Assembly: GCA_026874595.1 (NCBI GenBank)
Contig: CM049306.1
Coordinates: forward strand, 85,028,142-85,092,141
Reading direction: 5' to 3'
From: Sipunculus nudus
Taxonomy: Eukaryota; Annelida; Sipuncula; Golfingiida; Sipunculidae
Length of the DNA stretch: 64,000 nt
Both the position numbers and the translations under genes were made by a program. Below are positions 7,144-40,474 of this stretch, in pieces; the stretch's first letter is position 1, and every line of letters starts with the position of its first letter. The notes beneath the pieces are model-generated. The model was not told where the DNA came from. It did not search any database and saw only the letters and a list, made by a program, of their open reading frames with translations.

Positions 7144-7319
7144 AAAGCTTAAGTTGGTCTTATAGCCATTAGTATTATTTCACACTGAGGACTGCAATAG
7201 TGTTCCTCTACAAAATTATTGTTTCAATTATAACTTCTGTAACATTGCACAAAAATTATTCTTAGGTGGCATTTTTAGCTCAGCTGACTATAAGTCATCT
7301 GAGCTATAGTCGTGGTCCA

Positions 7320-9503: not shown

Positions 9504-9527
9504 TATTCATGAATGCATTCATGAATA
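9504..9527. repeat. 24-bp perfect palindrome
   Basis: The core ATTCATGAATGCATTCATGA, extended to TATTC...GAATA, equals its own reverse complement over 24 bp. It lies in an AT-rich part of A1 where related motifs such as GAATATGAATATG occur just upstream (about 9,400-9,420). Confidence 0.9.
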
Positions 9528-11098
9528 TATTCTTAAATATTATTTTAATAATCATTTCAGTTATATTTAATTTTAAAAATCATACGATTCTCTTATTATT
9601 TTTAATAAAAAATTATATCTGGGACAATATTTGTAATTTTTTTAATAAATAGTTAAACTCTTATATTATATGTTCTGCTTATAAGTTATATGGCCAAGTC
9701 AAAATCTGTGTGACAATAGTACTCCATTTGTTAATAAAATAAATGAAATCAATTCTCTTCTCTGTCTCCAAAGGTACTATCAAAATCATACATAAGCTTT
9801 ACAACAACAACTCATAATACAGCTTATACTTATTACCACACAAAACCAGCATGTGCCTCATTTCTAAATCATATTTTTTTATCATATATAACAGCTGAGC
9901 GCCGTGACCCATAGGTCCCTTGTTTCAAGTTTACTTGAATGATTTTTGGCAGAATTATTGGACCTTTAACAATGAAAGAACTGCATCTTTTATTATTCTA
10001 GATATTTTGATAAAAAGTTTATGAATATGTCAGCTTGAAAAAAAAGCATTTTAGCCAAAGTCTTTCAGTATGTGTAAACAGATTTACCTACAGGCCAAGA
10101 TTGTGTCTGTATCTTTAAATAGGTTGAGAAACTGCCAACTGTTTCAGATTTGGCAACAGATCATGAGTTCATTCAGTGCAGCCAGATATAGGTCAAGAGT
10201 TCAATCAGTGCTGCCAATCACAAGGCATGTGATGCCCTCATGGGTGACATGTGAACACCTCATGGGGACCATGTGTTCACCTCATGGGTGTCCTGCCCCT
10301 CAGGGCTGCATGTGGAGCCAATCTGTGAGCTTATTCAATGGTGTGGCTACTATTTCAGATTTGGCAACAGGCCAAAGGTCAGTCTGGATCTATTTATAGC
10401 TTTGGCAGACTACCCACTGCATCAGATTTGGCACCAAAGTTCAGCCTGGATCTCTTTATAGCTTTGGCAGATTGCCAACTGTGTCAGATTATGCAACAGG
10501 TCAAGAGTTCACTCAGTGCAGCCAGGTACAGGTCAAAAGTTCACTCAGTCTAGCCAGGTGCAGGTCATGAGTTCACTCAGTGCAGTACCCTGAGCTAGCA
10601 AATTTGTCACAGTTCACTTGGGGCAACTGCCTTTCTCACCTAAGCCTGGTCAGCCCCATGCATCAGACTCCAGGTAAGTTTGATGTATTGGCCTGATATT
10701 TTGACCTGTCTATGTGTCTTTGATGGCTTTCTCTTTCACAAGACAGGTGTTGCCACCTACAGAGACTTTTGCACAGTGTATGTGCCTGCTTATTTCTATA
10801 GAGGGTTTGATATATCAGTCTGAAATTGGGCATATGTATAATCTCTGATAGCTTCGTTGAATACAAGACTGGTGGTGCCAGCTACAATCATTTTTGTGTT
10901 GTGTGCACCCATGCCATAATTTCAGCAGTGATACATGAGAAGTAATGGTCCAGCATTGAAGCATTATACCTGGTGTATTTCCCAATGCACAGGTTTCCAT
11001 TAGGCCTGTAGGCCTTGTTAATTTATTGTTCATTTTATGGCATTTAGTGATGAATCTACTTAATTAACCAGATATATTTATTAATTAAGAAACTTAAG

Positions 11099-13998: not shown

Positions 13999-15220
13999 TT
14001 GTAATAGAAAATCTATATATTTCCCATATTTTAAATGGCCTTGCTGAATACAAAATAACTGGTGATTAATTTGTCATCAGTTGCTTTCAGTCATTCAAGC
14101 CATTATATAAGTATTAAAGCTTTAGTTTTGAAACCAGAAATAGATGACAATAAAGGAGGTATAGTGTTCTATAGTTAAACCAGAAAAACGTCATTTGAAC
14201 TTTTTAGTTAAATTAATGGATCTACTCTGTCATCATTTACTGTTTTGTTAAAGTCTTGACGAACATGAAGAACACAAAAACAGCTCTTTTATAAAAAATC
14301 TGATTAAAAATGGAGAGATCTCGTCAGTAACCTTTGTCTTGTATTTTGTGACATAAATTATCGATCAGCTGTTCACTTTCTTCTTCCCATTGTTTGGAAG
14401 GGAAAATGAAAGATGCAAGAAACCTTGTAAATAGATGGAGAAACAGGCCACCATCTGCACGGAGACAATATGCCAGTAACACTGAAACTGAGCAGATTTT
14501 CTGTAGCTAAAGATGAGCCAGAAAAAAAGAAGACGCCAATCACTTTGTGGCGGGACCGGATTTCTCTGATGCCTAAATGTCTGGTCCCAGCTGGAGGAGG
14601 AATATACTTGTTTCCCGAACCAGGGACTAAAAAGGTCTTCTGGAGCTCTATAATTGATTGGCTGGCATTCGCCTGCCCTCAAGACATGTGACACAGTTCC
14701 AGGTTGGCTTTACATCTGTAGCATGTAAATATTTATAGATATTACCCCAAACAAGTATACCCTGATTACTAAAAAAGAACACCTCCAGCCGCCGGTTTAT
14801 TTTAGCACCACACCTCTCAGTGACATCCTGCCTTTGGATTCGCCAGAATCCCCAACCAAACATTTCTCGCTTTGATTTTTTCCCTGCCACAACTTACAAT
14901 GTGATACCATCAGTAAAGTCAATAATAGAAATTGAACTTAGTTAATAGAATAACCCCAAGCATGTTATACCCTCCAGCAGGTGATTCAAGCCCCACTGTT
15001 CAGAACAACATACCATTCAGTGTTACCTATAGGACTTGGCTTGCTACTCTCACATTCTTACACTGTACATAGATCTTGTAACATAATGTTGACTGTGTAT
15101 GCTATCAAAACTGGTAGCTTACTAGCAGTCCTATCTAGGATGCAAAGTTTGATATTTGTGCCCACATTCAGTGTCTGTATCTGATTCTGTATTCACTTAT
15201 TCACTAAGATTTTGTGTATA
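13999..15220. other. Non-coding stretch with unrecognised short open frames
   Basis: About 14,365-14,890 is less AT-rich and open on both strands (73 codons plus, 109 and 80 codons minus). No domain, signal peptide or splice-site pattern is convincing. It could be a diverged repeat or an exon relic; I cannot tell. Confidence 0.45.
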
Positions 15221-17035
15221 AAGGCCTTGAAGGCCTTTTGCCTTTTTAGTTAACCTGTGAGCTTATGCCATGATGCAGCGCCTTCCGTCCACCATCATCC
15301 TTAAGTTGACAATGCTATCTTATTAACTGTCAGAGCTAGCATTTATTGAAGAATCAGTCACATGTCAAACTCTATTTGACTGAGCTTATTTTTTGGCTAT
15401 CTGCATTGACATAGATCATTTTATAAGGAAAAAGCTGAAAACCCTTAAAAATCTTCTTCTCCAAATCATCCAGCCAAATTGTTTCAATATTTCACAGAAA
15501 TAGTCCCAGAAACAATCTCTCTCAAGTTTGTTTGAATGGTTGTAGTTCGGTGATTTTTGGATGAGTTATGGGAAATCGAACTTAGTCATTTGGCCAAGAA
15601 AATTACTAACATAACAATCTCAAAAAACGACAGGAGATATCATCACCAAATTTTGTGCAAATGTTGGTCACATGACTCTTCTTTGAAGTTTAGGTTTTTG
15701 TGATGTCATCTACATTGACCTATGTTTAACAGGCAAAAACCTCATAATTTTAGCCCATTTAGCTTCTGTTTTAGAAATGTTTCATGATGAAACTGTCAAG
15801 CTGAATGGTATAATTTTTCACAAGAATTATTCCAGGGTAGGGTTCTCTCAAATTTATAAGAATAGATCATTTTTATTGATTTTTAGCTCAGCTGACTATA
15901 AGTCATCTGAGCTATAGTCGTGGTCCATTGTCCGTCGTCCGTCCGTCTGTCCGTCCGTCCGTCCGTCCGTAGATGTGGCACGTTTTGAAACCGTAAGACC
16001 TAGGAATCCAAAATTCGGCATAGTGTTAGATGTCCCCAAGATCTCCTACCAAGCCGAAAACTGGGTCTTTGCGACTTTGTTCCTTTGAGAAATTAAGGAA
16101 AAACCTCAATTTTTTATTAAAAACCTATTTTCACACTTCAGGGCTGCCTAATATCAAAACCACTTATCTGTTTTTCCTCATATTTACCATAAATATTCCT
16201 CTATATAGTTCCTATGTACATGCTTGAAATTATGTCTGTATTATATAATTTAAGAAAGTTATGGGCCAGAACAATGCATTTTGTAAAGCAAACTGTATTA
16301 TAATTAGGCAGCAGGTCAAGAGTTCAATCAGTGCAACCAGGTATAGGCCAAGAGTTCACTCAAGAGTGCAGTAGCTGCACCTGCAAATGAGTACTTGTTC
16401 ACTTTGGCGCAACTGCCTTCCTCATTTTAAGTTTGGTCATCAGAGTGCACCTTACTGAGAAGTTTAATGTATCAACCTGAAATTTTGGCCTGCCCATGCA
16501 TTTTGATGGCTTTCTCCTAAACAAGAATGGTAACACCACCTACAGTGATTTTTGCACAGTGTATGTCCCTGCTTATTTCTCAGAAGGGAATTGATATATC
16601 AGCCTAAAATTGTGGATTTCCATAAATCTCAAATAATTTTGTTGTATACAAGACTTTGGGTGACACCTAATATTGTTTTTAGGTTTCATGCATCTGTACA
16701 CATAGCTCATGAGTGGTTTGAAATATCTGCCTGAAATTTTGCATGTTCATACATCTTCGAGAGTTTCTCATACACAGGACTGGTGGTATCACCTACAATC
16801 ATTGTTTTTTCTAAACATGTCAGTTTTTTCAGGAGTGATGTTTGTGTAATTGGTGCTTGTACTCGGGTACAAAATATTTAGTACTTGCACTGTAGTTTGT
16901 ACATGTACATGTCACACGTGTACTTGAAAAGTAATCAAGTACTTTTCAAATAATGGTCAAGCTTGTTATTTGTGAAAGCATTATACCTGATGTATATCCC
17001 ATTGCACAGGTTCGCATTAGGCCTGTAGGCCTTGT
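15221..17035 (+). mobile_element. Dispersed repeat family B, copy 2, with the intact 5' terminus
   Basis: This copy shows the full 5' end: AAGGCCTTGAAGGCCTTTTG, a short palindromic hairpin, followed by TTAACCTGTGAGCTTATGCC and a GCCTTCCGTCCACCATCATC run. The 3' end GCATTAGGCCTGTAGGCCTT repeats the hairpin inverted. A truncated A element (15,895-16,287) sits inside. Body motifs (CAAATGTTGGTCACATGACT, CAGGTCAAGAGTTCA, GGTGCCACC-like units) align with the other B copies. Non-coding; the 60-codon frame at 16,552 is a shadow. Confidence 0.82.
15895..16287 (+). mobile_element. Family A element, copy A2, 3'-truncated, inside B copy 2
   Basis: Starts with hairpin AGCTCAG...CTGAGCT preceded by TTTT, then a short (GTCC)n block and the A body. 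It is nearly identical to A3 over the first 390 bp and stops at CATTTTGTAAA, where B sequence (GGCAGCAGGTCAAGAGTTCA) resumes. The 65-codon open frame at 16,030-16,227 is shared with the other A copies. The missing 3' end points to deletion or abortive insertion. Confidence 0.8.
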
Positions 17036-17877
17036 CTTTAGGCTTTGGGGTTATGGCATTTCATTAAAAAAAAAGACAAATACTCTTGTAGAAAATTATA
17101 TCTTTTAGCTGACACTTTCATGGATGTTTCAACAAAAAATAATATGTTATAAGCTTTAAGTCATTATCAGTTGACTGACCTTACACCTCAATTAAAATGA
17201 TTACTTAGTCTCATGTACTGTTAATTTTGACCCTAAACTTCACTTCAGTATTTCCATCAGAATGGTTAACATTGACCCAAGTCATGGGCTCCCATGTTTA
17301 TGGAAAACCATTTAAATTTCATTAAAAAAAATTAAGCTTACATCAGTGAAATTATTATCATCAGGCTTTGTGATCTCTGTATGTCTCTTGACCGTTTAAT
17401 ATAGTTTCATTGTTGACATAAGAAGAAAGATGGTCGCATAATTAAAGCATAGATCAGTTTTACGTAAGAGAAATTTAATAACAGTATAGAAGAGCTCTTA
17501 TGAATGAAACGATGTGTGACACTTTATAAATTTACACCAGTTGTTCCCCAAACTAAGCATCTCCAAGGAATAAAATTATTTTAACCCTCTTTTACCTGAA
17601 ATAGAATACATGCTTCAATAGGGTTTATGTAGAGACTCATTTTCATTACACAGGATTCAGCTAAAAGACAGGGAAGAAATTATTCTTTTCGGGTCAGAGA
17701 AAAGTCAGTTAATTTTATTAAAAGCTGAGGAATCCTTTCCCTATTAGGGAATGTCATGGAAAAGATAACTATGGTAATTGTAGCTTATTGACAAGGATTG
17801 GCATTCCTAACTTTAAAGAATCAGCATTTCAGTCCATCTGTATTCTATATTAACTGTCCTTTCACTTCAGCTACTGG
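17036..17877. other. Non-coding AT-rich stretch
   Basis: Nothing recognised between the end of B copy 2 and the hAT-like element. Confidence 0.6.
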
Positions 17878-17885
17878 TTGTATAC
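17878..17885. repeat. Left target-site duplication of the hAT-like element
   Basis: TTGTATAC directly precedes terminus TAGTGGTGGG and recurs exactly at 33,636-33,643 after CCCACCACTA. Eight base pairs is the length typical of hAT transposons. Confidence 0.82.
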
Positions 17886-18150
17886 TAGTGGTGGGCCAAT
17901 CATCAAGTTTTATCGAAAGTCAGTCGGTTTGCTGCCACTTTCAAGCGCTCGATTACCAATGGCAACTATCGATTACATCATAATATGATTGTTAGCTCAG
18001 CTGACTATAAGTCATCTGAGCTATAGTCGTGGTCCATTGTCCGTCGTCCGTCCGTCTGTCCGTCCGTCCGTCCGTCCGTCCGTCCGTCCGTAGATGTGGC
18101 ACGTTTTGAAACCGTAAGACCTAGGAATCCAAAATTCAGCATAATGTTAG

Positions 18151-18354
18151 ATGTCCCCAAGATCTCCTACCAAGCCGAAAACTGGGTCTCTGCGACTTCG
18201 TTCCTTTGAGAAATTAAGGAAAAACCTCAATTTTTTATTAAAATCCTATTTTCACACTTCAGGACTGCCTAATATCAAAACCACTCATCTGTTTTTCCTC
18301 ATATTTACCATAAATATTCTTCTATATAGTTCCTATGTACATGCCAGAAATTAA
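18151..18354 (+). other. 67-codon open frame shared by A copies, probably not coding
   Basis: A frame beginning MSPRSPTKPKTGSLRL is open here, at 16,030-16,227 and at 40,499-40,702, with a diverged version at 8,128-8,346. The copies descend from one repeat, so sharing alone does not prove translation. No domain is recognisable; the product would be basic at the N-terminus and hydrophobic towards the C-terminus. Confidence 0.4.
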
Positions 18355-19055
18355 GTCTGTTAGGTATAAATTCTTTAAGTTATGGGCCCAAACATAATGG
18401 ACTTTGTAAAAAATCAGGAAAAATATTTACTCACTTAACATGAAAAATTTTGAAACTAGAGTCTGTTTTCCCAAGTATATAACTATGTTTAATTAAGATT
18501 CAATTGTTTACCCAAAATTAGATCTGAATTTTGTAAATTTTTTAAGTAATTAGCATAAAAATAAAATCAGGACCTTAAATTTTGCCCAACTTTGACCATG
18601 GCACGTTTTTTTCCTGTAAGCACCATTGATTTAATTTTCACAGCATGTGAACATAAATATTTAATTAGTTTAAATCTGATATTTGGAAGTAAAAGCTTGA
18701 AAATTAAGCTAGTTATTGATTTTTTTCTTGAGGCTCTATTGTAGTCATTTGCTTTGTTTACAGATTACAGATGCAGGGTCCCACTCCAGATCACTGGAAG
18801 TCAGCTATACCAGAGTTTCTGATTTGTTACAGTCACTGGGGGAGATCCCCTGCTGTGACAGGTGTACAGTTATTCTCATATCACCACCCCAATGACCCCC
18901 CCCCCCCCCTGCAAACACAACCCACCAAGTGTTATGCAGTATTGTTATTGTTTTCACTGTATCTCCTTAATTGTAATGCTGCTTCCACTCTGATATGCAA
19001 AAACTTTCCTTGAAAAAGTAATTCAAGGTGTAATCCAGAAGATGCAATGTTGTGT

Positions 19056-19070
19056 AATGTAGCATTTTTA
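19056..19070 (+). repeat. Left target-site duplication of the LINE
   Basis: AATGTAGCATTTTTA at the left edge is repeated at the right edge (TGTAGCATTTTTA at 31,981-31,993, the initial AA merging with poly-A). The uninterrupted copy A4 has it once, at about 41,392-41,406. Length 13-15 bp, typical of target-primed reverse transcription. Confidence 0.9.
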
Positions 19071-22000
19071 TATATATTACCGGTACCTAGAGACTAATTG
19101 AATAAGGTACACAAGATAACAGATAATTAACACTAAAATGAGAGGTAATGTGGATACGTTTTATACACTTGGCAATACAAAGATTCATTAATGAGTTTTT
19201 AACAACAGAATTTGATTTTCATTGTAACTTATGTAAATACATATTTAAAGATTGAAGGTTAAAAGCCGACTTGCTAGACAGAGTTGAAGGCATTCTAGTG
19301 AGAAATCAAAATTAATTTTTTAAAGGTTATACTTGCAATCATAATTATCAGAGATCTTAAGTCTGTTCCACTACAAATTGAGACAGTAATAATATGTTAC
19401 TTATGTCATTGTTTGATATATAGACCTGGAATTTGCATAGATTTCTGTATATTTTTAATATTGTTGAATATATATGTAGATACCAGTAGTCTGCATATTG
19501 TAGTAATTCAAATAATTAATAACCACAAATCCTTATGGACAGTGAATGTAATTTTTAAACATAAAAAATGTATATATACTGCATAAGGTTACTATCTTTT
19601 TCTCTGCTTATTTCACTGCACTAAATGGTATTTTACAGATATTATATAAAAAAGGGCTCACAATTACCATATGTATTCACTTATGTTCATATCATATAAT
19701 ACCATTGGTAGAATGCTTGGCAAAACTTTCCAGTACAACTCTGGATATACTTCAAATTGGTGGTTTTAAACCTTTCTTTAGAAGAACAAGAGTATGGTAA
19801 TTTTTATCCAGTACAAAGAAGGTACCTGTGTAATGTTTGTTCTTTTTGCCACATCATACAAAGGGATTTACATAATACATTTATAAATAGTAATCATATT
19901 TAAGCCACTTGCTCTGGCATTCAGTTTAGAGGGCCAATCAGAATTGTTACAGAATCAATTAATATATATCAGCAACATTTTCCAGTCTCTGTTTACCTGA
20001 AGAAATATGAAATTAAGAATAGCATCTGGATCTTACTCTTTTCCTAATTTTACATCAAAACGGTTATAGAAACTGTCAATGAAGATGCTGGTAAACTTTT
20101 TTTATTTAAAGTAGGTAAACATACTAATTATGTAAGAACAGCTTAATTTTTGCTGAGCCAAATTTTATTAATAGAGAGATAGATACATGTATCCAATCCC
20201 TAAGAATTGAAAAGTATTTTTCCTCATGGAGATGATTGTGCTATATATACATTTATGCTAATTTTGAGATAAATCTGAGATGGATTTAAATGGATTTTTT
20301 TACAAATGAATTTAGATACACAACCATCTTTGGTATCAAGTAAGGGATATTGAATTTGTATGCCTTTTTTATGCATGGTATGTTAAAATTATTGTTAATA
20401 TTAGATGAGACAATATAATATCAGATGATATGTTAAAATTAGATGAGAATGCTTAGCTTCTCTTTCAATAATTTCCACGATTATACTATATAATATTGTA
20501 TTAGAGATTCTGGTCAACCTTGAACCTTTATGTATGTACGTATATATATGTTTAAATATTGCGTATATAGTTTTATGTATCCCAGTTATATACTATAGTG
20601 CATTACAGTTAAAATTATAATTCATAGCTCAATTTACACTCAACTTTACAAAATACCCCCCCCCCCCCCAAAAAAAAAAAATTAGAAATAATATTTAATA
20701 AATTGATAACCTGTATCAATACCATAATGATATACCATATTACAAATCTACAACTTGTGATTCAGCTTAGTGCACTGTAGTGGAACAACATATCAGAATT
20801 ATTAATATATGTATTTTAGTCTAAGCTTTACGATAAGATTACTATTCAGGATAAGGAGTTACAGTTTCAACAGGTTGAGACAATTTATCTAAGACTAAGC
20901 TTTTTTTTCTTTTTTTTTATTATTTCTGGAGATAAGTCTCATGCTGTAAGTTACAATACAAACATGATAATTATGGAATATTATTATTCGTACTGGGCAA
21001 ATGATGCAAACATTTTATAAAAGCACCTAAAAAGAGTGTAAACATAAATATTTACTTATAAATTACTTTATATACACCCATAGTGTACCCATAGTCAGTT
21101 CTACTGTTAATTTTAGTGTTACAGTGAAAATTTTATAGGGATCTGACAGATCTTTACAAAAATCATCATATCTTTTTACCAACAGTTTTTCTTGCCTAGG
21201 TATGATTGTGGGTGTAGTAAACTGATTCCTAGTGGGGTTGGAGGACACCAAGCTACTTTGTGAGGCCATCATTATAACTAAATCGGAACGTGAAAAAATT
21301 TAATGAAAATCCATGCACATAATGAAAGCAGAAGTCATTAGACTTCGGTGGCACTGAGATGCCTCACCAAATATCTGATTGATTTTCATGCAAGTTATAA
21401 ACGTTAACCAATATAGTTTCTGAATAAAATTCTCAGAATGTTTGTATATTTAATTAGGTCAGAGGAAACTAGGCTACTTCTAGGGCCTGTTTATCTTGTA
21501 ATATCACAGTAATAATTTACTTGATTTGATAGAACTTCACAAATTCCATAACCTTTCACCAACAGATTATCATGCCCAAGTCAACTATTGGCAAAAAATA
21601 TATACACAATTAATGAGGCCAGAGGTGTAATTGCAATAAATTATCTGGAATACTGTAGACCTTAGTGAAACTCAACTCTAATTGAACCAATATAACACCT
21701 TCCCTTAAATCCATGTTCATTTAATGAGGTCAGAGGTCAACAGAATTTGATGGCACCATGATGATGCCAAAATATGGTAGATTTATTCTATTTAACTCAT
21801 AAATATGTATTAATACAAATTTCACTTGATCTAAAGTCTCAACAAAATGCATGTACCGATATATTAATTAGGTTAGAGGTCACAAGACACGACATATTAT
21901 GCATCTTAATAGGACTGCTGCATAGATTAGGTTTGTTCATATAATCTGCCATATAGGATAGAATATATTTTTTTATAACTTAAAATTTTGTTAGATTACC

Positions 22001-22306
22001 TTGTTTACTGTAGAAAGTAAGTTTTTTTTTAACTACTATACACATAATAAAGAGCTCCGCTGATAAGTAGTCAGCATTTGATAGGTATTCTTTCTGTTGC
22101 AAGATGCATCAGAACTTACTACACATCATAACTTGGAAGCATGTTATCGCGTCACATATCTGTTATCTAAGTGACTTAGTAACTTTTGTTATTTACTGTA
22201 TGTTTGTCATAGCTATTATATGTAATGTGGGTACATTAATGACCAAAATTGCATTAATATATATCTTTAAATCTTTTGTCAAAAAAATAATTAACATAGT
22301 ACATAT
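19071..22306 (+). other. LINE 5' region, no ORF1 seen
   Basis: About 3.2 kb of AT-rich sequence between the left target duplication and the ORF2 start. No frame over about 75 codons and no coiled-coil, RRM or zinc-knuckle ORF1-like product. It holds poly-C/poly-A at about 20,656-20,682 and a set of DR1-like motifs near the 3' side. It may be a long 5' UTR, a decayed ORF1, or contain a further unrecognised insertion. Confidence 0.6.
21456..21882 (+). promoter_or_regulatory. Four spaced TTAATKAGGTCAGAGG motifs (DR1-like) upstream of LINE ORF2
   Basis: The motif occurs at 21,456-21,468 (AGGTCAGAGGAAA), 21,616-21,628 (AGGCCAGAGGTGT), 21,727-21,739 (AGGTCAGAGGTCA, a perfect direct repeat of AGGTCA with one spacer base) and 21,870-21,882 (AGGTTAGAGGTCA). 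Each is preceded by TTAATT or TTAATG. DR1 is the known binding arrangement for HNF4/RXR-type nuclear receptors. Whether these drive the LINE is inference; they may simply be diverged 5' UTR monomers. Confidence 0.45.
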
Positions 22307-23242
22307 ATGTCTAATACTTGTCAGATAGTATCATTGAATGCCAGAGGACTGGCCAGTTATTCTAAAAGAAGAGAAGTTTTTCATTGGTTAAACAAGAAAG
22401 AATGTCATATTATATTTTTACAAGAGACTCATAGTACTTCAAAATGTGAAAATAAATGGAAATCAGAATGGGGACATCAAATATATTTTAGCCATGGCAC
22501 TAACCAAGCAAGAGGGGTATGTACATTAATTAAAAACAAAACTGCCTTAGAGATAAAAGCTGTAAGAGGGGATAATCATGGGAGATATTTAATTATTAAT
22601 ACAATAATAGGTCAACATGAGATCTCCTTTGTTAACATATATGCACCAAATAAGGATGAACCCTGCTTCTTTGAGGAACTTATTAATGTTATCAGCACCA
22701 ATTGTACAGGCAGCTTAATAATAGGTGGAGATTTTAATTTAACTCTTAATCCAAACTTAGATAAAAAGGGCGGGCATTCTAAAAGTCACATGAAATCTAG
22801 ACAAGTGATAAGCCATTGGATAGAATTAGAACAGTTATCTGATATCTGGAGATTACAACATCCCAATCATTTAGAATATACATGGCATAGATATCTTCCT
22901 AAACCAGTATTTTGCAGACTTGACTTCTTTCTAATTAGTGATAGCCTAATAAGTTGTATAAACCAATCTGATATTGAAGCTGGGTATAAAAGTGACCACT
23001 CTTTGATTAAAATAAATATGGCAATAACAGAACATAAGAATGGACCAGGTTTCTGGAAATTGAATTGTTCATTATTAAAGGATCAAAGTTATATCTCCAA
23101 AATAAAAGAGTGTATAAAAGACACTATTAACAATAATAAAGGAACAAATCCATCATTAATGTGGGATACTTTAAAATGTCAGATAAGAGGAGAAACAATA
23201 GCATACGCAGCCTACAAGAAAAAAGTACAAACACAACAGATT
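22307..23242 (+). CDS. LINE ORF2, N-terminal endonuclease part (broken gene, piece 1)
   Basis: Encodes about 312 residues before the TTAA insertion. This is the apurinic-like endonuclease that nicks target DNA to prime LINE reverse transcription. Signature residues are all visible: N11 in SLNARGL, E40 in LQETH, Y112 in IYAPN, D142 and N144 in GGDFN, D206 in CRLDFF, and D230-H231 in KSDHSLI. The start at 22,307 (MSNTCQIVSLNARGL) puts the first motif at the usual distance from the N-terminus. The native frame is left at 23,243, after the codons for TQQI; the physical frame runs on to a stop at 23,323 within transposon sequence. The following linker and reverse transcriptase resume in phase at 28,821. 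Family resemblance is to L1/Tx1 ORF2; the exact clade is not determined. Confidence 0.92.
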
Positions 23243-23244
23243 AA
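23241..23244. repeat. Left TTAA target duplication
   Basis: TTAA directly before CCCTTTACTG; the matching TTAA is at 28,817-28,820. Keeping one TTAA leaves the ORF2 frame continuous. Confidence 0.85.
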
Positions 23245-23460
23245 CCCTTTACTGTTCAGATTAGCCTGTGGATTGTCACACTCCTACTGTTCAGATTTAT
23301 TTTGCATTTTTTCCACATTTTGACATGAATCTATATAAGAGACATTTACTCAGTAACCGTTAAAGGTATCTTTGTGAAATTTTCAGCTTTTACTGTCAGG
23401 TATATGTCCTTCATGTTATTTTATTTATTTTCTACATACCTGGTTTGATATGTATGTAAC

Positions 23461-24890
23461 TAAGGTATATACAGGTAAAAACAGGTAAATCTGTACTACC
23501 TGTATTTCCACTCACTGGTATATCACCAAAATGACCCCTTTCATCCTGTTCAGGTAACCCATGAACCATTTGATAAAAAAAGGGAAATGTAAGGATTTTT
23601 TTTTCACTCTAAGGTAATTATATATTAAAGGTAAGAAAAAGGTAAATGATTTGGTTTAACACTGGAAAGGGAACCACCGACGAACCAGAATGTGCTAGTA
23701 AAATTGGATTTTTCTGTGGGAATCATATATTTTTCACCTGAAAAGCTTGCTGACCAAAAGAGCACATTCTATGACTATTGACATATAACACATATGTTTA
23801 CCTGTACAGGTAAGTAAAGGTAAATTATTTTTTTTTCTGAATATGTACGCAAACACCTTGTTCATCAATATAGTTACTATAAATTAATACCTTCTCTATT
23901 TATGGACTGTATAATTCATTTTGATATAAGAACAGGTGCTTTTAATACAGTAATTAAGTTACCTATGTGAATAGTACCTTTGTTCTTCAACTGATCTAAT
24001 TACCTGTGGCAGTGACAAAATCATGCTGAAAAGTGGCTGAGAAGAATATGGATAAACAAGTGTCAACTGTGTAAAACCATTATATTTTGATTTTTCAGAC
24101 ATGTAAAACATAAATTGATAATTTTGGTTACGGTTACACATAAAAAACATACTCACCTGTACAGGTGAGTTCAGGTAAATACAGGTAAATTATTTTTTTA
24201 ATGAAGTATATATTTTATACATGTAATAAGGGAGAAAAAAAACATACAACTTAATTTTGAGTGCCATGTGTAAAATTTATGAATTATAGGTACTAACTGC
24301 ACTATTTATTGGGTTACCTGAAATGATACCTTTGATCTTAAACAGATTTAATTACCTTTGTAAGTACAGAATATAAAGACAACTTTTTATTTTAAAAGTG
24401 GAGAGGAAATTTTTGAAGGAGTTAAAACAATATGCAGAAACTATCTTTTAATTAACTGCACAGCCACGAGACTTGTGGATTTCAATTTTGCCAATTTCTA
24501 CCTGTAAAAGTTTACTCACCTGCACAGGTAAGATCAGGTAAATAAAGGTAAATTCTCATTTTTTTAATTTAAATTATATATTATACTTGTTATAAGGGAC
24601 ATTGCAATAAAAACTATTTACTTTTGTCCAATGTGCAAAATATATAATTTATGGGTGTGAAATGCACTAATTATCTGGTTACCTGTAATATACCTTTTTA
24701 TGTCAAATTAATATATTTTTACATGTGCAGGCAAAAACAAATCGCCGACTGATTTTAAAATAAAATCTGGAAAAATGTGTCTACCCTGTTTGTTAACATT
24801 TCATGCAATAATAAAATTGCTGTTTAGTTGGTCTGTCGCGTTTAACTGCACTTGTAAAAATCCAGGTGCGACAGGTAAACAGGTGTGCAC
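23461..24890 (+). repeat. Array of CAGGTA-rich units with a period of about 340-365 bp
   Basis: Units are anchored by blocks like CTGTACAGGTAAGTAAAGGT at about 23,801, 24,158 and 24,523, with weaker ones near 23,470 and 24,862. Between anchors the units share ATATATTATAC...GTAATAAGGGA, a block with TGTGCAAAATATATAATTTATG, and GGTTACCTG..ATGATACCTTT. ACAGGTAAA and its complement TACCTGT recur many times. It lies subterminally in the TTAA element. Confidence 0.75.
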
Positions 24891-25366
24891 TTGGTTCGAT
24901 CAACGATTAGCCTAAATAAACGTTGATATATCCAAATCTTTCCCATTCGAAACAGTGCGAATGTACTAAAATTTGAAATAAAAAATCAAAACAAATATGT
25001 CTTGCACTTGTGAAAACTCTTATTTTCTTAATTGAGGGTGTCCATGCAATTTCTTTTGAAGTAACCGCCCCTCCGCGGCTGACGGTGATTGAGCGATAAT
25101 GAGTGAATTTAGCAATATGTAGCACACAAGGTACATTAACGAGGCGGTTTTGCAGACTTTAGTCACAGAATTATCCTATCTAGTCAATATAACGAAAAAA
25201 TAAAAATAAATAAAACATTTACTGGACAATTAAGATGCAAGACGACACGTCTGTTTGGGTTTTTTTCCTGAACGGTCCAATTTTACCGCGTCATCCCTCA
25301 GCCAGCGGTGACGCACTGACGCTGCAAACTTTTCTCACCCAATCGTATCTACTTTTACATCAGCAA

Positions 25367-25454
25367 GGTTCACGTGACTGGGTCTGGCGTGTTTATTTTG
25401 TAAAGTCTTTTAAATGGACATGGTTCACGTGACTGAGTCTGGCGTGTTTATTAT
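25367..25454 (+). repeat. Two 33-bp direct repeats with CACGTGAC
   Basis: GGTTCACGTGACTG.GTCTGG followed by CGTGTTTATT occurs at about 25,367 and 25,422 (55-bp period) with one mismatch. Each contains the E-box CACGTG. Further CACGTG sites in the element are at 27,723, 27,729, 28,290 and 28,548. Confidence 0.8.
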
Positions 25455-28400
25455 AAGAAGCATCATGAGATGCTGTGCCGACTGGCGGTCTGATTATTCT
25501 TTTTTTTTTGTGGGGGTGGTTGGGGGGGGGGGGGTGGGGGAGTTACCTGGAAACATCCTCTCACGTCATGCAATATGTATGCATTAGAATCGATTATTTC
25601 CCGCAGGGATCAGAAACAATGAAAACACTGGTAGTACTAGTGGAACAATAATTTATTAAATATATATAATAAATAGGCCTATGCACATTAATGTAAACAA
25701 ATCGTTATTAACAAGAATATAAAATAACGGAAAATCAATATTTTTTATTGTTGAAAAGGTGTTTTTAAAATGTGCTATTGGGGATAATGCACATAATACC
25801 AAAGTTTATAAACGTGAGAAAACGATACTAAACTGTGAAGTAACACCAAAGAAACATGTTTTCACAGTACATTTTAATGTATGTTAAGTTATTCAAATAT
25901 ATAGGCCTACGTAAGTCCAACAATGCTTATCAAAATCATGCCTAGTTACTATGATTTCATAGCAGTACATTCTGGTATCTTAGAGGAAAATTGCACGTAG
26001 GCTTACATATCTTCATGCACTTACTTATCCAGGTCTTCAATTTGCACTTTATTTCAGTGACATTTAAATGAAGCATAATTACGTCATATGAAATTAATAT
26101 AAAATGGAAATATAATATATAATTACATTTATTTAATTCAACTTCACTTGAAGAAAAGTAGGAAATTTATTTTATAATTTTGAGATGCACAATTCCTTGG
26201 TTAACTAGATGTATACACGAGACCTAACTTCAAATCATATAGCTAATCTGGTAACCTCCGTATGCAACTTTGTACATTTAGGCCCTCATATAGTCAGAAA
26301 TCATGCACTGCTGATAAAACTTCAGCTTTAGCAGGAAAGCATGCGGTCTCCCCAGGCTGCAAGGTGCATGGTGATTTCACGGAGAGGCAGAGTTCCAGTT
26401 AATTATAAAACAATATGCAGCAACAATTCAATAATTCTTAAGAAGCACCTGGAATGTTCCAAAAACTTCTAATAAGTTATGATCTCTTGGGTGTTTGTTT
26501 ATTTATTTATTTTGTATTCACCAGTCCCGTCAGCTGTAGAGACGCGGACCATGACCTACACCTGGCAATTATACATGTCGTTCGGTTCCCGAACATTGTA
26601 AATGATGTCATTATCCTTTGATGATTAATGTAATTGATGCCAATTTAAATTAGTAATTTTCACTCCGAATCCCCGTCTGGTTGGCCACATGTTGTGTGCT
26701 GTCTTTCCGCTAAAATCTTCTGTGTGATAGGAAAATTTCCTTGTGCTAATAAAACTGTCAATCAAACGTGAAAATGACAAGGTCGGTGGGTAAAAATAGA
26801 AGCCGACACCCTGTGGTATTTTAGGTCTTCGAAAGGGGCAAGTTTGAGACAAAGCCATCAAACATTTTGCAATATAAATATATTTGTATACCTGCGTCTT
26901 TTAAATCTTATTTTACAGCAATGGAAAGGTACAATTAGATTTCAGTCTAATTTGTCCACCTGCATGATTTCTCGATCGTCATTTTGAATACACCATGCGC
27001 ATGCATATCGAAAGTCCGCATCTTTGGTCTTAATATTTTACTTTCACTGTGTCACCGTCACTATATATATACGCTATAGCTTCTAATTTAAGATTGGCGA
27101 ATGCATTTTATTCATTTTCTTGCATGTATCATGACTGAGACTGACTCCGCCGTATGACTTTAAAGGATTATCATGACCACGACACATTTTCCATATTTAA
27201 TCCCTGGGCCATGCATGCAAGCGTTGACTGGGTTTTGAGAGCGATATCAATATAAAGCGGCGTTTATACCGGGTGCACGTACGGTATATGCGATGTATAT
27301 GCAGTCTGCGGTATACGTTATGTATTTTTTATGAATTTAGGCGGCGAATGAACCCGATTTGAGAAACTTTCATGGATGAAATATAAAAAGGAGTTATAAG
27401 TTCTGGTATTAGTGATCAGATTTTATGTTTAAAAGGTACAAACATTTATAACGCAGTACTATTCCTTACAACAATGAATAGCCTGTTATAGGCAAACGTA
27501 TTACAAAAAAAAAATAATTTACTTCAATTCATATAATAATAGGTTATATTTTTAAAATTTAGTTTGCTATGTGCCATATATATTTAAAGATGTTTTGCAG
27601 CTCCGCCCAAAATCTGTTTCACTGGCAGTGACAACTACTGGTGCTTTTATCAATCACTAATGAAAATTATAATACGCACATAGGCCTATATATACACACA
27701 CACACACACACAAAAGCGCGCACACGTGCACGTGCACATGTAGCCTATACATATAAAGGAAGTACTACACATATAAAAATTTGTAAAATCTGTTCAGTAT
27801 GTGTTAAAACCGTATTAATACATATTTGTTCAAGCGTATAAGTCACTTACTGTCTTGTTTTACATATTCAAGGATCTGGGTGTATAGGCGTACAGTTCCA
27901 CGTACGTCGTAAAATAATTACTTCAATATTTCATGGAGTATAAAGTTATCTTTATATTTTACACTGGAAAATTAACTATATCTCTATAATATCTGGCTGT
28001 TTCTAATTTAAGACGGTATTAATTTTATTTTCAATCCAAAAAGCCTCTTAGAATGATTGACAGTTCTTGTGCCCGATTACGATTGTACATAAAATGTTTG
28101 GCACAGAAATGATCACTAGTAAACAATCAGACATCACATATATATACGACATGATATATGACAGTATCTTCGATTTTTAGTTAAGAAAATATGTTAATAT
28201 TTAAAATAAATACTCATTTTATTATATGATATCGGTTAAAAATGGTTTTCCAGTGCCAGTACATGACACAGTAAGGAGGTCACGCAGATCACGTGCGTGG
28301 TGTCTTGTCAGACGCGTCAGTCAGTCGGACGGCGATCATTGGTCACAAGTTAAACCAATAAAAAAGGGGATAATATATGATCTTGGAAATGTTTAACGGA

Positions 28401-28737
28401 AGTTAAATCTGTAAACACACTGCACTTGATTTTGTCACCAGGATTGATTGCCAACATTTGGTAATTTACCGATTCCTGATGAATTTAGCGTAGGAGTCTG
28501 ATTTTACTCTCGCAGCCGACATGTTACCAGGGCCCACGTAACAAGGCCACGTGAGTGAAAGTCAATCATTTTTATATTTTTCCAACAAGTCTGCGTTCGC
28601 GCCAGTTTGGATCTTGGTCACATGTTAGAACAACACTTGACGTTTTTCTCTTTCATTTAAGTACAAATATGATGGATGACAATAGACATTTCACCCCCAA
28701 AACTTGCCCCAATTACGGGTATGTAAAATGGGCTTTA

Positions 28738-28798
28738 GCGCGCCCGGGCGGGCGCCTTTGAACTACAGGCCCGTGACAAACGCGCGCCCTGGCGGGCG
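28738..28798 (+). repeat. Pair of GC-rich subterminal direct repeats
   Basis: GCGCGCCCGGGCGGGCG (28,738-28,754) and GCGCGCCCTGGCGGGCG (28,782-28,798) are 16/17 identical, 44 bp apart, just inside the right end of the TTAA element. They stand out in AT-rich surroundings. Subterminal repeats of this kind often bind the transposase; that role is inference. Confidence 0.8.
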
Positions 28799-28820
28799 TT
28801 ATTGGAGTTTAAAGCCTTAA

Positions 28821-29419
28821 ACATTCAGAAAGGTTAATTCATCAACTACAGACTATATATAACACAACAGGTGATACTAAAGATAAAGAAAATTGGGAAG
28901 TAGCAGTTAATAACCATAAAGAGTTTGTTGAAGAGAAAACAAGAGGAGCAATTATAAGATGTAGAACCACATGGTATACAGAGGGGGACAAACCGACTAA
29001 ATATTTTCTTAACTTAGAAAAAAGAAATTTTAATCGAAAATCGATAATAAAACTCAAAGATAAACAAGGTAGAATAATAATAGAACCCAAAGAGATATTA
29101 AATGAGGAACTACAATTTTATACAAATTTATATACAGCACAAGCCAAGTCTGATAATGTTAATAGGGATTTCTTTTTACTAGAAAATAATAAAATGCTCA
29201 ATGAAGAGGAAAGGACTTTGTGTGAAGAAGAATTTAAAATTGAAGAATTTAAAAACACTATTGATTCAATGGCCCTTAATAAGACTCCAGGCCCAGATGG
29301 GTTCCCAGTAGAATTTTATAAAACATTTTGGTCTGATTTAAAAGAATATTTTATAAATGCTATAAGTAACTCATATAATAAAGGCTGCCTTCCACTCACT
29401 ATGCGTCAAGGGATAATGT
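28821..29419 (+). pseudogene. LINE ORF2, linker and start of reverse transcriptase (piece 2)
   Basis: The frame left at 23,242 continues here without a stop from 28,822 until the frameshift, about 200 codons. It includes the conserved pre-RT segment TEGDKPTKYFLNLEKRN (L1-type ORF2 proteins have a similar motif) and the RT-0 block NKTPGPDGFPVEFYK near 29,280. The first in-frame ATG after the insertion is at 29,194, but this is an internal codon and not a real start. The frame ends at a stop at 29,428-29,430 because of a two-base loss at 29,419-29,422 within a TC run. Function as for the whole ORF2: reverse transcription at the nicked target. Confidence 0.88.
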
Positions 29420-31651
29420 CTCATTCCTAAGAGAGGCAAGGACCAACTTCTTTTGAAAAACTGGCGCCCCCTTTCTCTTCTTAATACCGATTATAAAATA
29501 TTAGCAAAAACTTTAGCCAATAAACTTAAAATAGTCTTACCTTCAATAATACATTCAGATCAAACTGGTTTCATGAAAAATCGATATATCGGAGAAAATA
29601 TAATAACAATTATAAGCATTATCTCTCATTTAAAAAATAAAAAGATAGGAGGTTACCTGTTATCAGTTGATTTTGAAAAAGCATTTGATCAGTTAGAATG
29701 GCCTTATATTCAAGATGTTCTTCAAGCATTTAATTTTGGACCAATCCTTCGAAATTGGATTAAGATATTATATCATAATATTTTTAGCTGTGTTCTGAAC
29801 AGAGGATGGGCCACTGATTTCTTCTCAGTAACAAGAGGTGTTAGACAGGGATGTCCCCTATCACCATACTTATTCATATTGGCAGCAGAAATACTAGCAA
29901 ATGAAATAAGGAATAACTGTAAAATAAAAGGAGTAATAGTTGATCAGAAGGAACACAAAATTATTCAGTATGCAGATGACACTGTTTTAACTCTTACAGG
30001 AGGACCAATGTCAATCAAAGAAGTCTTGAATGTATTTAAAAGGTTTCAACAAATATCAGGTCTTAAAGTTAACTTAGAAAAAACAACAATAATGCCGATA
30101 ACAAACTATTTTTATAATCAGGCACAATTGAAAGACTTAGGTCTGTGTTGGTGTACTAATCCAGTTAAAATTTTAGGAATCTCAATTCATCCGGAATGGA
30201 AAAAAATGATAGAAACTAACTATAAAGAAATCCTTAGTAAAATTAAAACTATTATAAATATCTGGAGACACAGAATTATGTCCTTGTCTGGAAGGATAAC
30301 CATTGTGAAAACATGTATTATTTCACAACTCATATATTTATTCCTTGTACTTCCTAAGCCATCACAAGCTTATATTAAAGAAGTGGAAAGATTAATATTT
30401 AAATTTATATGGAATAACCAACCAGATAAGGTTAAGAGAAACACTTTAATAGCACCGAGAGATAAAGGAGGGTTAAATATGATTAATCTCCAAGCTAAGT
30501 TACAATCCTTAAAAATCTCATGGGTTAAACGTTTTCTTATTGGCTCTACTGAAAATGGTTGGAGACAGATTATTAATGTACAATTAAAAAATCTAGGTAC
30601 ATATATATTTAAATGTAACTTAAGAGTGAACGACTTAAAAGATTTGAATGTCTCTTGTGATCCATTCTGGAAAGAAGTACTCCAATCCTGGTGCAATTAC
30701 AATTACACTAAGACGGTTTCTATAAATGAAATTCAGTCACAAACTTTGTGGTTTAACTCTCACATAAAAATAAATAACACAGTAATATTTTATAATAAAT
30801 TATATAAGGCAGGGGTCAAAACAGTTTCAGACATTACTAAAAATGTGGGAAACAATGTAACATTTCTGAGCTTTGAAGAATTAATAAGCAGATACAAAGT
30901 TACTATTAACTTTATGCACTACACAGGATTGCTGCATGCAATCCCAGGAACTTGGAAAAAAGATATAAAGAATAACTCAAAGGTCCAACTGCAAGAATAT
31001 GGGGTTGAAAAAATTTTAAGAATGAAAAATACTTCACGTTTCATCTACAGTGATTTAATAAATAACCTCTATATTTTGCCAGTCAAATCAATGGAAAAGT
31101 GGACCAGAGAGTTAGAATTACAAAACAATGAAATCATACTTAAAGCCTTCAAAAATATAACTAGTATTACCATTTCTGAGAAGCTAAGAACCTTTCAGTT
31201 TAAACTATTACATAGGATTCTACCTTTGAATCCCTTCCTCTATAAATTGAAAAAAAGTGACACAGAATTGTGCACATTTTGCAATAAAGATAGAGAGACA
31301 TATTCTCATATATTTTATCACTGTGAAATAACATACAGCTTAATATCTGATTTAAAAAAATGGTTGAGAAACATAGGCTTAGATATACACATGAGCAATT
31401 TCAGAAAAACCTTTATAATTATGAACACTACCAACGACACCCTTCTAGATATTTTAATACTACTCTTTAAACATTTCGTATACACATGTAAGTGTAAAGA
31501 AAAAATTCCTACGTTCTGTATATATACAAACTACGTATTACAGATCTATAAAATAGAAGAAAATATAGCTAGAGCAAAAGGTAAAATAGTAATACATGAC
31601 CAGAAATGGAAACAACTTAAAAATAAATATTTTAAAGAAAACCATTGCTGA
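29420..31651 (+). CDS. LINE ORF2, reverse transcriptase core and C-terminal CCHC (piece 3)
   Basis: Continues ORF2 in the shifted frame; the first ATG is at 29,453, giving 732 residues. Counting from that ATG, motif A is SVDFEKAFD (71-79, D73), motif B RGVRQGCPLSPYLF (128-141), motif C QYADDTVL (catalytic D175-D176), motif D GLKVNLEKT, and the next block VKILGISIHPEW. Near residues 606-623 is a cysteine-histidine knuckle C-x2-C-x8-H-x4-C (CTFCNK...HIFYHC), usual near the C-terminus of L1/Tx1-type ORF2. No stop interrupts it. With pieces 1 and 2 and the two lost bases, ORF2 would be about 1,256 codons, close to L1-type length. There is no RNase H domain. Antisense frames here are shadows. Confidence 0.93.
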   Translation, partial: LIPKRGKDQLLLKNWRPLSLLNTDYKILAKTLANKLKIVLPSIIHSDQTGFMKNRYIGENIITIISIISHLKNKKIGGYLLSVDFEKAFDQLEWPYIQDVLQAFNFGPILRNWIKILYHNIFSCVLNRGWATDFFSVTRGVRQGCPLSPYLFILAAEILANEIRNNCKIKGVIVDQKEHKIIQYADDTVLTLTGGPMSIKEVLNVFKRFQQISGLKVNLEKTTIMPITNYFYNQAQLKDLGLCWCTNPVKILGISIHPEWKKMIETNYKEILSKIKTIINIWRHRIMSLSGRITIVKTCIISQLIYLFLVLPKPSQAYIKEVERLIFKFIWNNQPDKVKRNTLIAPRDKGGLNMINLQAKLQSLKISWVKRFLIGSTENGWRQIINVQLKNLGTYIFKCNLRVNDLKDLNVSCDPFWKEVLQSWCNYNYTKTVSINEIQSQTLWFNSHIKINNTVIFYNKLYKAGVKTVSDITKNVGNNVTFLSFEELISRYKVTINFMHYTGLLHAIPGTWKKDIKNNSKVQLQEYGVEKILRMKNTSRFIYSDLINNLYILPVKSMEKWTRELELQNNEIILKAFKNITSITISEKLRTFQFKLLHRILPLNPFLYKLKKSDTELCTFCNKDRETYSHIFYHCEITYSLISDLKKWLRNIGLDIHMSNFRKTFIIMNTTNDTLLDILILLFKHFVYTCKCKEKIPTFCIYTNYVLQIYKIEENIARAKGKIVIHDQKWKQLKNKYFKENHC

Positions 31652-31881
31652 AATAATACCTATCTTAAAGCAAAAACAAAAAATATTTACCATGATTATT
31701 TCAATATGTTTATAATGTACCCTGTCTGTATTTGTTGTTTATGTACATCCGGTTAGTGTGTATCAACCTTAGTGTGAATGTATACATGTATGCATGTTTT
31801 TGTTTTATGTAAATTGTATGATGATGTAAAATCATGTGTACTGTCTGTTACTGTATCTGTATTTTATGTTCAATTAATAAA
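31652..31881 (+). other. LINE 3' UTR with AATAAA signal
   Basis: About 225 bp rich in GT and T (GTATACATGTATGCATG, TGTTTTTGTTTTATG) after the ORF2 stop, ending at AATAAA (31,876-31,881) that runs directly into poly-A. Confidence 0.75.
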
Positions 31882-31980
31882 AAAAAAAAAAAAAAAAAAA
31901 AGAGAAATCAGGCCGAGTCCATCTCGAGTCCAGTTTGAAAAGAAAAACCACATTCTAAAAAAAAAAAAAAAAAAAAAAAA
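31879..31980 (+). other. Double poly-A tail with a 55-bp intervening segment (candidate 3' transduction)
   Basis: Poly-A of 23 at 31,879-31,901, then 55 bp of mixed sequence (GAGAAATCAGGCCGAGTCCA onward, to CACATTCT), then poly-A of 24 at 31,957-31,980, immediately followed by the target duplication. This order is what results when transcription reads past the LINE signal into flanking DNA of the source locus and the product is inserted. Confidence 0.65.
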
Positions 31981-31993
31981 TGTAGCATTTTTA
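31981..31993 (+). repeat. Right target-site duplication of the LINE
   Basis: TGTAGCATTTTTA follows the second poly-A directly and continues into A-element sequence as in the uninterrupted copy A4. Confidence 0.9.
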
Positions 31994-32532
31994 AAGAAAT
32001 CATTTTTCTTTTAAATGATTTTACCAATCATAATGGAACCCATCAGTATGCTTAAATTATGATAAAATATGAAGCACATTATGGATAAATAAAGACACAA
32101 TTAAAAATTGTGAAATCTAAATTCAAGTATTTTTTTTAGATATTTATTGTTTTGCAGATTTAAAAGATATATTTTTGTGGTAAAAAATAAATAAACATTT
32201 TATATGCATGATGTGGTGTTATCTGACAAGATTGAGATTTATGATGATGCAATTGAGAATTATGAATCAACTTTTATATTCAGATATATATGTTATATTG
32301 AAAATGTATAGAAATATAAACTTAAATTAAAAAAAAAATTGATGTGATAAAAAAATGAGGATTTATTACAAACATTTGTTCATTATTTTCCTGCATCAGC
32401 AGAATTTGAGATCAGGCTTTGTTTGCCATGTTTTATGTTGTTAATTAGTTATATTTCAACTGTATACATTTCATAAAAAAAACATATATTTAATAATATA
32501 TATTATACAAAAAAAAAGATTCGATTGAACAA

Positions 32533-32778
32533 ATGTGTAAACTACTGAAATGTCAACAGTTAATTGAAAAGCCAACTAATGGTCATGGTAACTGTACAGA
32601 TCATTTGTTCACAAACTGCTCACATGCTTCAGTTTCAACATTAGGAAACACATGGTCAGGTCACAAAATATTATTTGCAACAATTTCTTGCTCATCAATA
32701 CAAACCAATCATATAAACCAACCATGGCCTTTATTACCTCTTCCTCTTACACTTTATCTCCATTTGATATTATTTTAG
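32533..32778 (+). pseudogene. Endonuclease-like C-terminal fragment in A3 (Helentron relic)
   Basis: An 81-codon frame resembling the last part of an EEP-family (exonuclease-endonuclease-phosphatase) domain: QQLIEKPTN, then DHLFTNC, then GNTWSGHKILFATIS. EEP endonucleases typically have a D.I.TN block followed by SDH; here the aspartate of SDH is glycine, so it should be inactive. Copy A4 (41,947-42,192) has the same frame with 7 differences in 81 residues and the same glycine. The stop is only 58 bp from the element 3' terminus, as expected because Helentron proteins carry such a domain at their C-terminus. It could alternatively come from a non-LTR endonuclease. No Rep or helicase remains. 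Confidence 0.55.
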
Positions 32779-33635
32779 ATTTTTACCTTCAAGGTTAACT
32801 TCAGCTGAGCACAGTGACCCATAGGTCCCTTGTTTTCTTTCCAAAATGCCTTTTAGTTGTAGGCAAAAATGATTCTTCCATTTTTTACCACATTCCGGGC
32901 TTCGTATAATGAGTCCTTGTTCCCAAATAACTTCCATATGTAACCGAGTATGACACAGTAGATGCGAGAATGTAGGACTTATTAAACTTATTATCTGTGA
33001 ACTCGCAGGGAGCTGCAGAATTGGCGAAGAGTTTTCTAACGAGATGTACATTGTACAAATATGGGCGGGAAGGCGTTAAATACTCCATAAATTCTCCAGG
33101 TCTATGCCAATTTTAATAGATTCTCTTAGAAATAATCTATTCAACCGATGCCAGGCATCGCCGGTTAGGCAGTCCTTCAAAAAATTCTTTGTTGGGGCTT
33201 ACACGGCCGGTCGAGTATTTGGATTTCAGCTGGAATTTTTTTCGGACAAGTCTGCAATTGTTTTTTGTGGTATGATCTGCCCCAGTCACACCTGGGCCTG
33301 TAAATTTGCCTTCATGTGCTAGAAAAACAACCCCTTCTATAGGCCTAACATTCTTAGATGCTCTTAATTTCCATAATGAAAGATATTACCCGATGTTGCC
33401 GATCGTTTAATGTGATCCTTAAAATTAGTCTGATTGTGTCTATATACGTGGAAGATCATTACACTCGTGCGCGAGAGGGGAATACCTGCCGGGGAAACGC
33501 AGGTACTGTTTCACAGATAATTGCATAATTCTTTGATAATTGCCTATATTTGTCTGAACCGATTAATAATCGATCATCAGTCGGTTTGCTCAAACCGATT
33601 ATCGATTATGAAAAAGGAACCGACTCCCACCACTA

Positions 33636-33643
33636 TTGTATAC
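33636..33643. repeat. Right target-site duplication of the hAT-like element
   Basis: TTGTATAC after CCCACCACTA, identical to 17,878-17,885. Confidence 0.82.
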
Positions 33644-36404: not shown

Positions 36405-37080
36405 GGACCTACGCTCTTTACACAGCACTTAAACTATAGGTCTACTTCCTATATGGTAAGCGCTGTTTGTTATGACCTCGTATCCTGAATTGCTACACCA
36501 GAGGGGAGCACTGTATTTTTGTCCAATCAGATGAGACCTTGTGCTGGAAGACACGGGCAAGCGAAGAATACACAGAGCCAATCATGTTCATTTTGTTTTG
36601 AGTGACATCTCATCGCCCCGGTAACCGTATGGACAGGCCACAGGCTCAGAGAGAATTGCCGCAGACGTGGTTTACTTAGGGCCTTGGGCACATAGGATGC
36701 CCGGTCGGTGAGCTGTAATTCAAACGAAACGTAACAACAAAGGCTGTGTGCACACCTCGCTGGCTGGTTTCAGTTCTGCAGACACCAGACACATGGCTAC
36801 GCTAACAAAGTCTTACTGTCAGGATCAAATTGGTCGATGATGCGAGAATGCAGAGGGAGCAATTAAAATTCGAACGTAAACTTGTCTTCAAACGGCGCTT
36901 GAAGCACAGCTATAGGTGGAGCCAGGATGCCTGTTGCGTGTTTGTATATTGGCATCTGGTTGGCTGCTTGTCACATCATACGCACGTTTTGTTCAGCGGA
37001 CAACGAACCGCCATCTGGTGTCTAAATTTATCATAAACGGTCAAAGCTGGCAGCGTGAAAATCAGTTGCTCCTTTAGAAG
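36405..37080 (+). repeat. Dispersed repeat E, copy 2 (longer copy)
   Basis: Plus-strand copy of the repeat found inverted at 833-1,260. It has the outer AAGCGCTG hairpin end, the CCAGAGGGGAGCACTGTATT block, the CATCGCCCCGG block, and the block ending in TCATAAACGGTCAAAGC. It includes about 240 bp (36,665-36,905) missing from copy 1, probably deleted there. GC content is higher than the flanks. The 68-codon frame at 36,830 is not recognised. Confidence 0.8.
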
Positions 37081-40150: not shown

Positions 40151-40474
40151 ATTTGAGAATTTGGACATGGTCAGAAAAAGCATTATTCCACTTTAAACTT
40201 TGCTGGTACACATCCCCTTGTTACCAAACTCTTTCTGCAGACAGGTTCTCCCCTTGACACTGTCCTTGGAGTACTTGTGTGTTGCATCCCCTCACCCTTT
40301 TCAAACCCTGACAGGTTTATTTCTCCCAGTTTCTGAAACCATATATGGGGGCTGCCATTTTGCATACACATTAAAACCCGGATACTACAGGACAAAATGT
40401 GGAAATGATTGGTGAACCACTACTATGTTGAGTTAAATTTTCACCATTTTCAGAACAGTTAAAAGAGAACTTGA

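Follow-up and report, generated by a model that had tools for sequence, protein, structure and literature searches.

A nest of four mobile elements, one within another, spans positions 17878-33643 (15.8 kb) of the window, the 64-kb stretch of DNA that was analysed as a whole. Its existence, and the possibility of ordering its layers, are confirmed by boundary tests of each layer, in which both the coordinates and the four-layer topology proposed in a first-pass annotation proved correct (table 1). The scanned stretches of the nest yielded no transposase, Rep/helicase or ORF1, the two weak matches below the cut-off being to unrelated families, namely a plant domain in the innermost insert (E 0.36) and a domain of unknown function in the right arm of element A3 (E 0.029; 14.7 bits versus a cut-off of 25). 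Rfam and tRNA scans of the 64-kb window gave nothing useful.

Table 1. Features of the nest and of the reference copy A4, ordered by position in the window.
Feature	Coordinates	Strand	Remark
Target site duplication TTGTATAC of the hAT-like element, left copy, 8 bp	17878-17885	+	identical to right copy
hAT-like left arm, 107 bp, begins TAGTGGTGGG; subterminal TCAGTCGGTTTGCT at 17920	17886-17992	+	
Putative HINE A3, left arm: 5′ subTIR, complementary IR, (GTCC)n at 18039-18091; ends in the LINE duplication	17993-19070	+	
LINE target site duplication TGTAGCATTTTTA, left copy, 13 bp (15 bp counting the preceding AA)	19058-19070	+	
3.2 kb between left LINE duplication and ORF2	19071-22312	+	no Pfam match in any of six frames; longest stop-to-stop frame 94 aa
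LINE ORF2, part 1: endonuclease of L1 type, aligned with residues 9-312 of human L1 ORF2; ends TTAA	22313-23244	+	
Insert of 5,576 bp, a single TTAA on each side (23241-23244, 28817-28820), probable non-autonomous piggyBac-type	23245-28820	.	no coding match
LINE ORF2, part 2: reverse transcriptase, zf-RVT; frameshifted once, at about 29417-29430	28821-31651	+	
LINE tail: poly(A) 31879-31901, 55-bp segment 31902-31956, poly(A) 31957-31980	31879-31980	+	
LINE target site duplication TGTAGCATTTTTA, right copy	31981-31993	+	
Putative HINE A3, right arm: 3′ subTIR TCAGCTGAGC, palindrome GACCCATAGGTC, end CCTTGTTT (± a base or two)	31994-32835	+	
hAT-like right arm, ~800 bp, ends CCCACCACTA; TCAGTCGGTTTGCT again at 33577	32836-33635	+	
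Target site duplication TTGTATAC of the hAT-like element, right copy	33636-33643	+	
Putative HINE copy A4, first ~130 bp missing; uninterrupted LINE target at 41394-41406	40473-42249	+	

The outermost layer has inverted ends matching at 10/10 positions and a target duplication matching at 8/8. The window contains just two occurrences of the terminal sequence TAGTGGTGGG, one at 17886-17895 on the plus strand and one at 33626-33635 on the minus strand, where 0.10 occurrences would be expected. The duplicated octamer TTGTATAC, which fits the hAT target pattern (nTnnnnAn), is not rare by itself (nine matches in the window versus 3.97 expected), so that duplication and inverted ends were tested in combination. 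Among 39,382 pairs of identical 8-mers lying 300-25,000 bp apart, with the left inner end passing a complexity filter, the hAT-like pair is the sole case with 10/10 inverted ends, 9/10 being reached in two pairs; the filter was introduced after an unfiltered run, in which 864/63,925 pairs scored at least 9/10, those printed being mostly AT microsatellite. The arms are further tied together by TCAGTCGGTTTGCT, a 14-bp subterminal repeat found close to both ends in the same orientation. Six-frame scanning of the right arm returned no Pfam match, hAT transposase included, and the element is therefore called hAT-like from its ends and duplication only; a BED-finger remnant suspected there by eye received no support from the same scan. 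The 8-bp duplication, the short inverted ends and the subterminal repeats are those of non-autonomous hAT elements, the difference being that no transposase remnant was found in the right arm.

The second layer, A3 (about 17993-32835), is one of several copies of an element, A, and has both of its ends present, each matched in other A copies. The 5′ ends of these copies, at 7276, 15884 and 17993, read TAGC and are preceded by a T; the 3′ ends, at 9925, 32835 and 42249, read CCTTGTTT, the end at 9925 presumably belonging, by its position, to the copy that starts at 7276. When the outer arms and A were used in BLAST searches, the hAT-like arms were found within the window around A3 only. Alignments with A1 and A2 begin at the A boundary, and alignments with 9892-9925 and A4 end there, outer-arm sequence being absent beside 2/2 of the other A 5′ ends and 2/2 of the other A 3′ ends in the window. 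The constant occurrence of hAT-like and A sequences together as one element, which the first-pass annotation had named as a refutation of its own reading, is contradicted within the window by these A ends without outer arms.

By the plan of the oyster HINEs, A would be a HINE, i.e. a non-autonomous Helentron. At its 5′ end the subTIR and the complementary IR (TAGCTCAGCTGACT / AGTCATCTGAGCTA) are complementary at 13/14 positions, with a predicted hairpin of −17.5 kcal/mol. The 3′ subTIR TCAGCTGAGC, with 10 bp complementary to the 5′ end, is present in A3 and A4, the third 3′ end (9892-9925) retaining 9/10, and the palindrome GACCCATAGGTC lies 8 nt from the end in 3/3 of the 3′ ends. A (GTCC)n microsatellite is found in the left module of A1, A2 and A3, this being the part missing from A4. 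A T precedes 3/3 of the 5′ ends and follows 2/3 of the 3′ ends, with a C after the third; no target duplication was seen by eye, and six-frame scans of A1 (7271-9930) and of the two A3 arms gave no Pfam match above the cut-off. The Crassostrea gigas element Cg_HINE (PMC7492417) and the Drosophila element DINE-1 (PMC4067079) share with A the 5′ subTIR with its complementary IR, the 3′ subTIR with its palindrome, T-rich sites, the lack of a target duplication and the lack of detected coding capacity, and Cg_HINE also the GTCC-type microsatellite. The subTIR match is 10 bp in A versus 11-12 bp, often with one mismatch, in oyster HINEs, and the distance from subTIR to 3′ end is about 25 nt versus about 38-60 bp in mite HINEs; apart from the microsatellite, A3 showed no tandem array.

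The boundaries of the third layer, a LINE, are given by TGTAGCATTTTTA, which is found without mismatch at 19058, 31981 and 41394, a fourth match, with one mismatch, lying at 49062. The copy at 41394 is the uninterrupted site in A4: alignment of A3 with A4 confirms that A4 is continuous across TGTAGCATTTTTA, as the first-pass annotation had read it. Although truncated, A4 is a valid reference for this site, the missing part being the first ~130 bp of A. Identity between A3 and A4 is 94.1% to the left of the site and 95.5% to the right (K2P 0.062 and 0.046), which is what a single A copy cut into two pieces should show. The pieces of ORF2 contain 0 stops in 1249 codons, and the APE-type endonuclease and the reverse transcriptase are, among solved structures, closest to L1; the LINE is placed in the L1 superfamily. 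It resembles L1/Tx1 elements in its L1-type endonuclease, reverse transcriptase, C-terminal zf-RVT, poly(A) and 13-bp duplication, and differs from them in having no recognizable ORF1, a non-assigned 5′ region of 3.2 kb and a double poly(A) tail. Searches of the virus and prokaryote collections viral_contigs and genome_contigs, which are uninformative on animals, led nowhere for the HINE 5′-end pattern and gave, for LINE relatives, 2 and 38 pattern matches, respectively, none of them confirmed; the equally uninformative search for LINE DNA in phages also led nowhere.

The innermost insert interrupts ORF2 between two TTAA tetranucleotides. TTAA is dense here (654 in 64 kb), with four in the left junction zone (23120-23323) and three in the right one (28760-28900), and 4 of the 12 possible pairs are in frame, all of them stop-free, so that TTAA and frame alone are weak evidence. 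The join at 23241/28817 keeps the frame, reading ...QQIKHSERL..., whereas the three alternative in-frame pairs would cost 87-114 nt of ORF2, partly aligned to human L1. In alignments with human L1 ORF2 (chain 8sxt_A), the left part ends at residue 312 (query residue 308) and the right part begins at residue 347 (query residue 33); by gap-free extension from both sides the human numbering passes from 314 to 315 across the join, a spacing that, being extrapolated through a variable linker, supports the join rather than proving it. The absence of ORF2 loss and the unbroken numbering make 23241/28817 the favoured pair. A second TTAA, at 28834, was considered as the right end together with 23241 and rejected, the frame being broken and the inverted ends weaker.

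Comparison of the insert ends gave 5/7, 5/10, 8/14, 9/20 and 12/30 inverted matches, values equalled by 2.5%, 13%, 2.4%, 8.7% and 11.6%, respectively, of 42,865 TTAA pairs, which indicates that there is no clear inverted repeat. PiggyBac terminal inverted repeats begin with CCY. The left end of the insert reads CCCTTTA and the right end, read inward, GGCTTTA (5/7), and six-frame scans of 23243-28200 and 28150-28834 matched no transposase. With weak inverted ends and no transposase found, the assignment to a non-autonomous piggyBac-type element is regarded as only probable; the single TTAA per side and the left end are like those of such elements, the right end, the weak inverted ends and the length of 5.6 kb without a detected transposase being the differences. 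The density of TTAA, the number of stop-free in-frame pairs, the weak inverted ends and the lack of a transposase in the six-frame scans would suit an insertion of another kind, with ends falling by chance at or near TTAA. However, the alternative joins remove ORF2 sequence, the favoured join fits the L1 spacing by extrapolation, and the junction zones 23215-23325 and 28740-28860 share no direct repeat of 7-10 bp (there are three of 6 bp), which rules out a longer target duplication of that size; an insertion other than of piggyBac type is, on balance, thought rather unlikely. Two local features of the insert may be recorded: at 23463-24581 there are a few degenerate units spaced by about 350-363 bp with CACCTGTACAGGTAAG-like motifs, and at 28720-28810, just inside the right end, a GC-rich palindromic stretch unlike the rest of the insert.

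Ordinary nested transposition accounts for the nest, no new process being required. Direct observation covers the limits of the first three layers, the unoccupied LINE target in A4 and the frame-preserving TTAA join, and a history in four steps can be proposed. A non-autonomous hAT-like element of ~0.9 kb would have inserted by cut-and-paste, generating the TTGTATAC duplication. A HINE of ~1.9 kb would then have entered it beside a T, without target duplication, mobilized by Helentron rolling-circle proteins that were presumably supplied in trans from elsewhere. The L1-superfamily LINE would have followed, entering the HINE by target-primed reverse transcription with formation of the 13-bp duplication, and finally the 5.6-kb non-autonomous TTAA-target element, probably piggyBac-type, would have entered the LINE ORF2. 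Taken as a whole, this layered sequence of insertions is considered highly likely. Of the broader statements in the first-pass annotation, that of independent boundary evidence for every layer is well founded for layers 1-3, for which the evidence is strong, and has to be lowered to moderate for layer 4, owing to the abundance of TTAA and of in-frame pairs. HAT and piggyBac elements both move by cut and paste, so that the four different mobilization mechanisms it listed become four families with three chemistries.

The same annotation regarded the order of insertion as fixed, which is correct as to which element entered which; nesting orders the entry of one element into another and gives no proof that each entry took place here, and an already loaded outer unit could have moved to this locus. 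The HINE might, for instance, have been inside the hAT-like element when the latter arrived and made TTGTATAC, or the LINE might have been copied with the TTAA insert aboard. Nesting reveals the order of joining and not the place, and a single locus cannot separate these histories. However, the hAT unit with its present cargo measures 15.75 kb, and a LINE with a split ORF2 would need to be copied in trans. L1-type elements are poor at copying others in this way. Transfer of a prebuilt part of the nest is therefore judged improbable, and we infer that every insertion occurred at this very locus. An assembly artefact is barely credible: assemblies do fail at repeats, and the evidence consists of assembled sequence alone, but misjoining would not be expected to yield two perfect target duplications and a reading frame that can be resumed beyond an insert.

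An independent clock agrees with the nesting in making the LINE younger than the HINE, if A3 and A4 derive from one source. With a transition weight of 2 and assuming neutrality after insertion, 5.2% of ORF2 substitutions create a stop, and the lack of stops in the codons of the two pieces then limits change since insertion to 1.55% or less (95%). Half of the A3-A4 distance is 2.3-3.1%, at which the probability of 0 stops would be 0.0115-0.0024, hence the younger age of the LINE. The clock rests on one copy pair, A3-A4, with divergence of the source included, and leans towards youth because the ORF2 pieces were picked as open frames.

The missing ORF1 and the double tail of the LINE are the only parts of the nest that a specialist might wish to follow. 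In the region between the left duplication and ORF2, Pfam gave no match of any kind in six frames and no ORF1 is recognizable, the largest stop-to-stop frame being of 94 aa. ORF1 may be either absent from this LINE copy or too diverged; decay alone explains its absence poorly, given an ORF2 without stops in 1249 codons and with one frameshift. A long 5′ UTR, a missing ORF1, a 5′ transduction or a further insertion are the candidate identities of this region. AT skew across it is near zero, although ORF2 is nearly intact, and degenerate repeats around TTAATNAGGTCAGAGG occur within it at 21436-21886. At the other end, the 55-bp segment enclosed by two poly(A) tracts suggests a candidate 3′ transduction, against which counts the absence, by eye, of a standard poly(A) signal in the segment; no second copy of it is present within the window. 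That the LINE moves without an ORF1 of its own, carrying foreign DNA at both ends (a 5′ transduction of up to 3.2 kb and the 55-bp 3′ transduction), is regarded as very unlikely.

Nested insertions are common enough for relative dating: in the TinT approach (PMC3014933), element-in-element insertions, of which thousands are reported in present-day genomes, are used to order the activity of retroposons. TinT counts many nests, whereas the present case is a single locus holding four families. With its exact duplications and a copy of the empty site in the same window, the nest is a clean reference point for putting the transposon families of the lineage in order; a single nest by itself dates nothing, and it would serve as one row in a genome-wide tabulation of insertions of element into element. 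Among comparable families, hAT and PiggyBac elements are reported in molluscs, and Tx1 LINEs in bivalves (PMC10294476).

Other repeats of the window were noted in passing. At 54105-55628, tandem repeats of about 340 bp adjoin a minus-strand match to the HINE 5′ end (80% over 71 bp, 55559-55628), and the whole looks like a HINE with a satellite-like array. Repeated blocks about 70-80% alike are found at 6379-17038 and 42244-43969, the latter with no Pfam match in six frames; HINE copies A1 and A2 sit between blocks that adjoin each other at 42244-43969. The window starts with a 44-bp tandem array (3-764); next to this array, two stretches contained in 792-1261 recur in inverted orientation inside 36410-37109 (78-82% alike).
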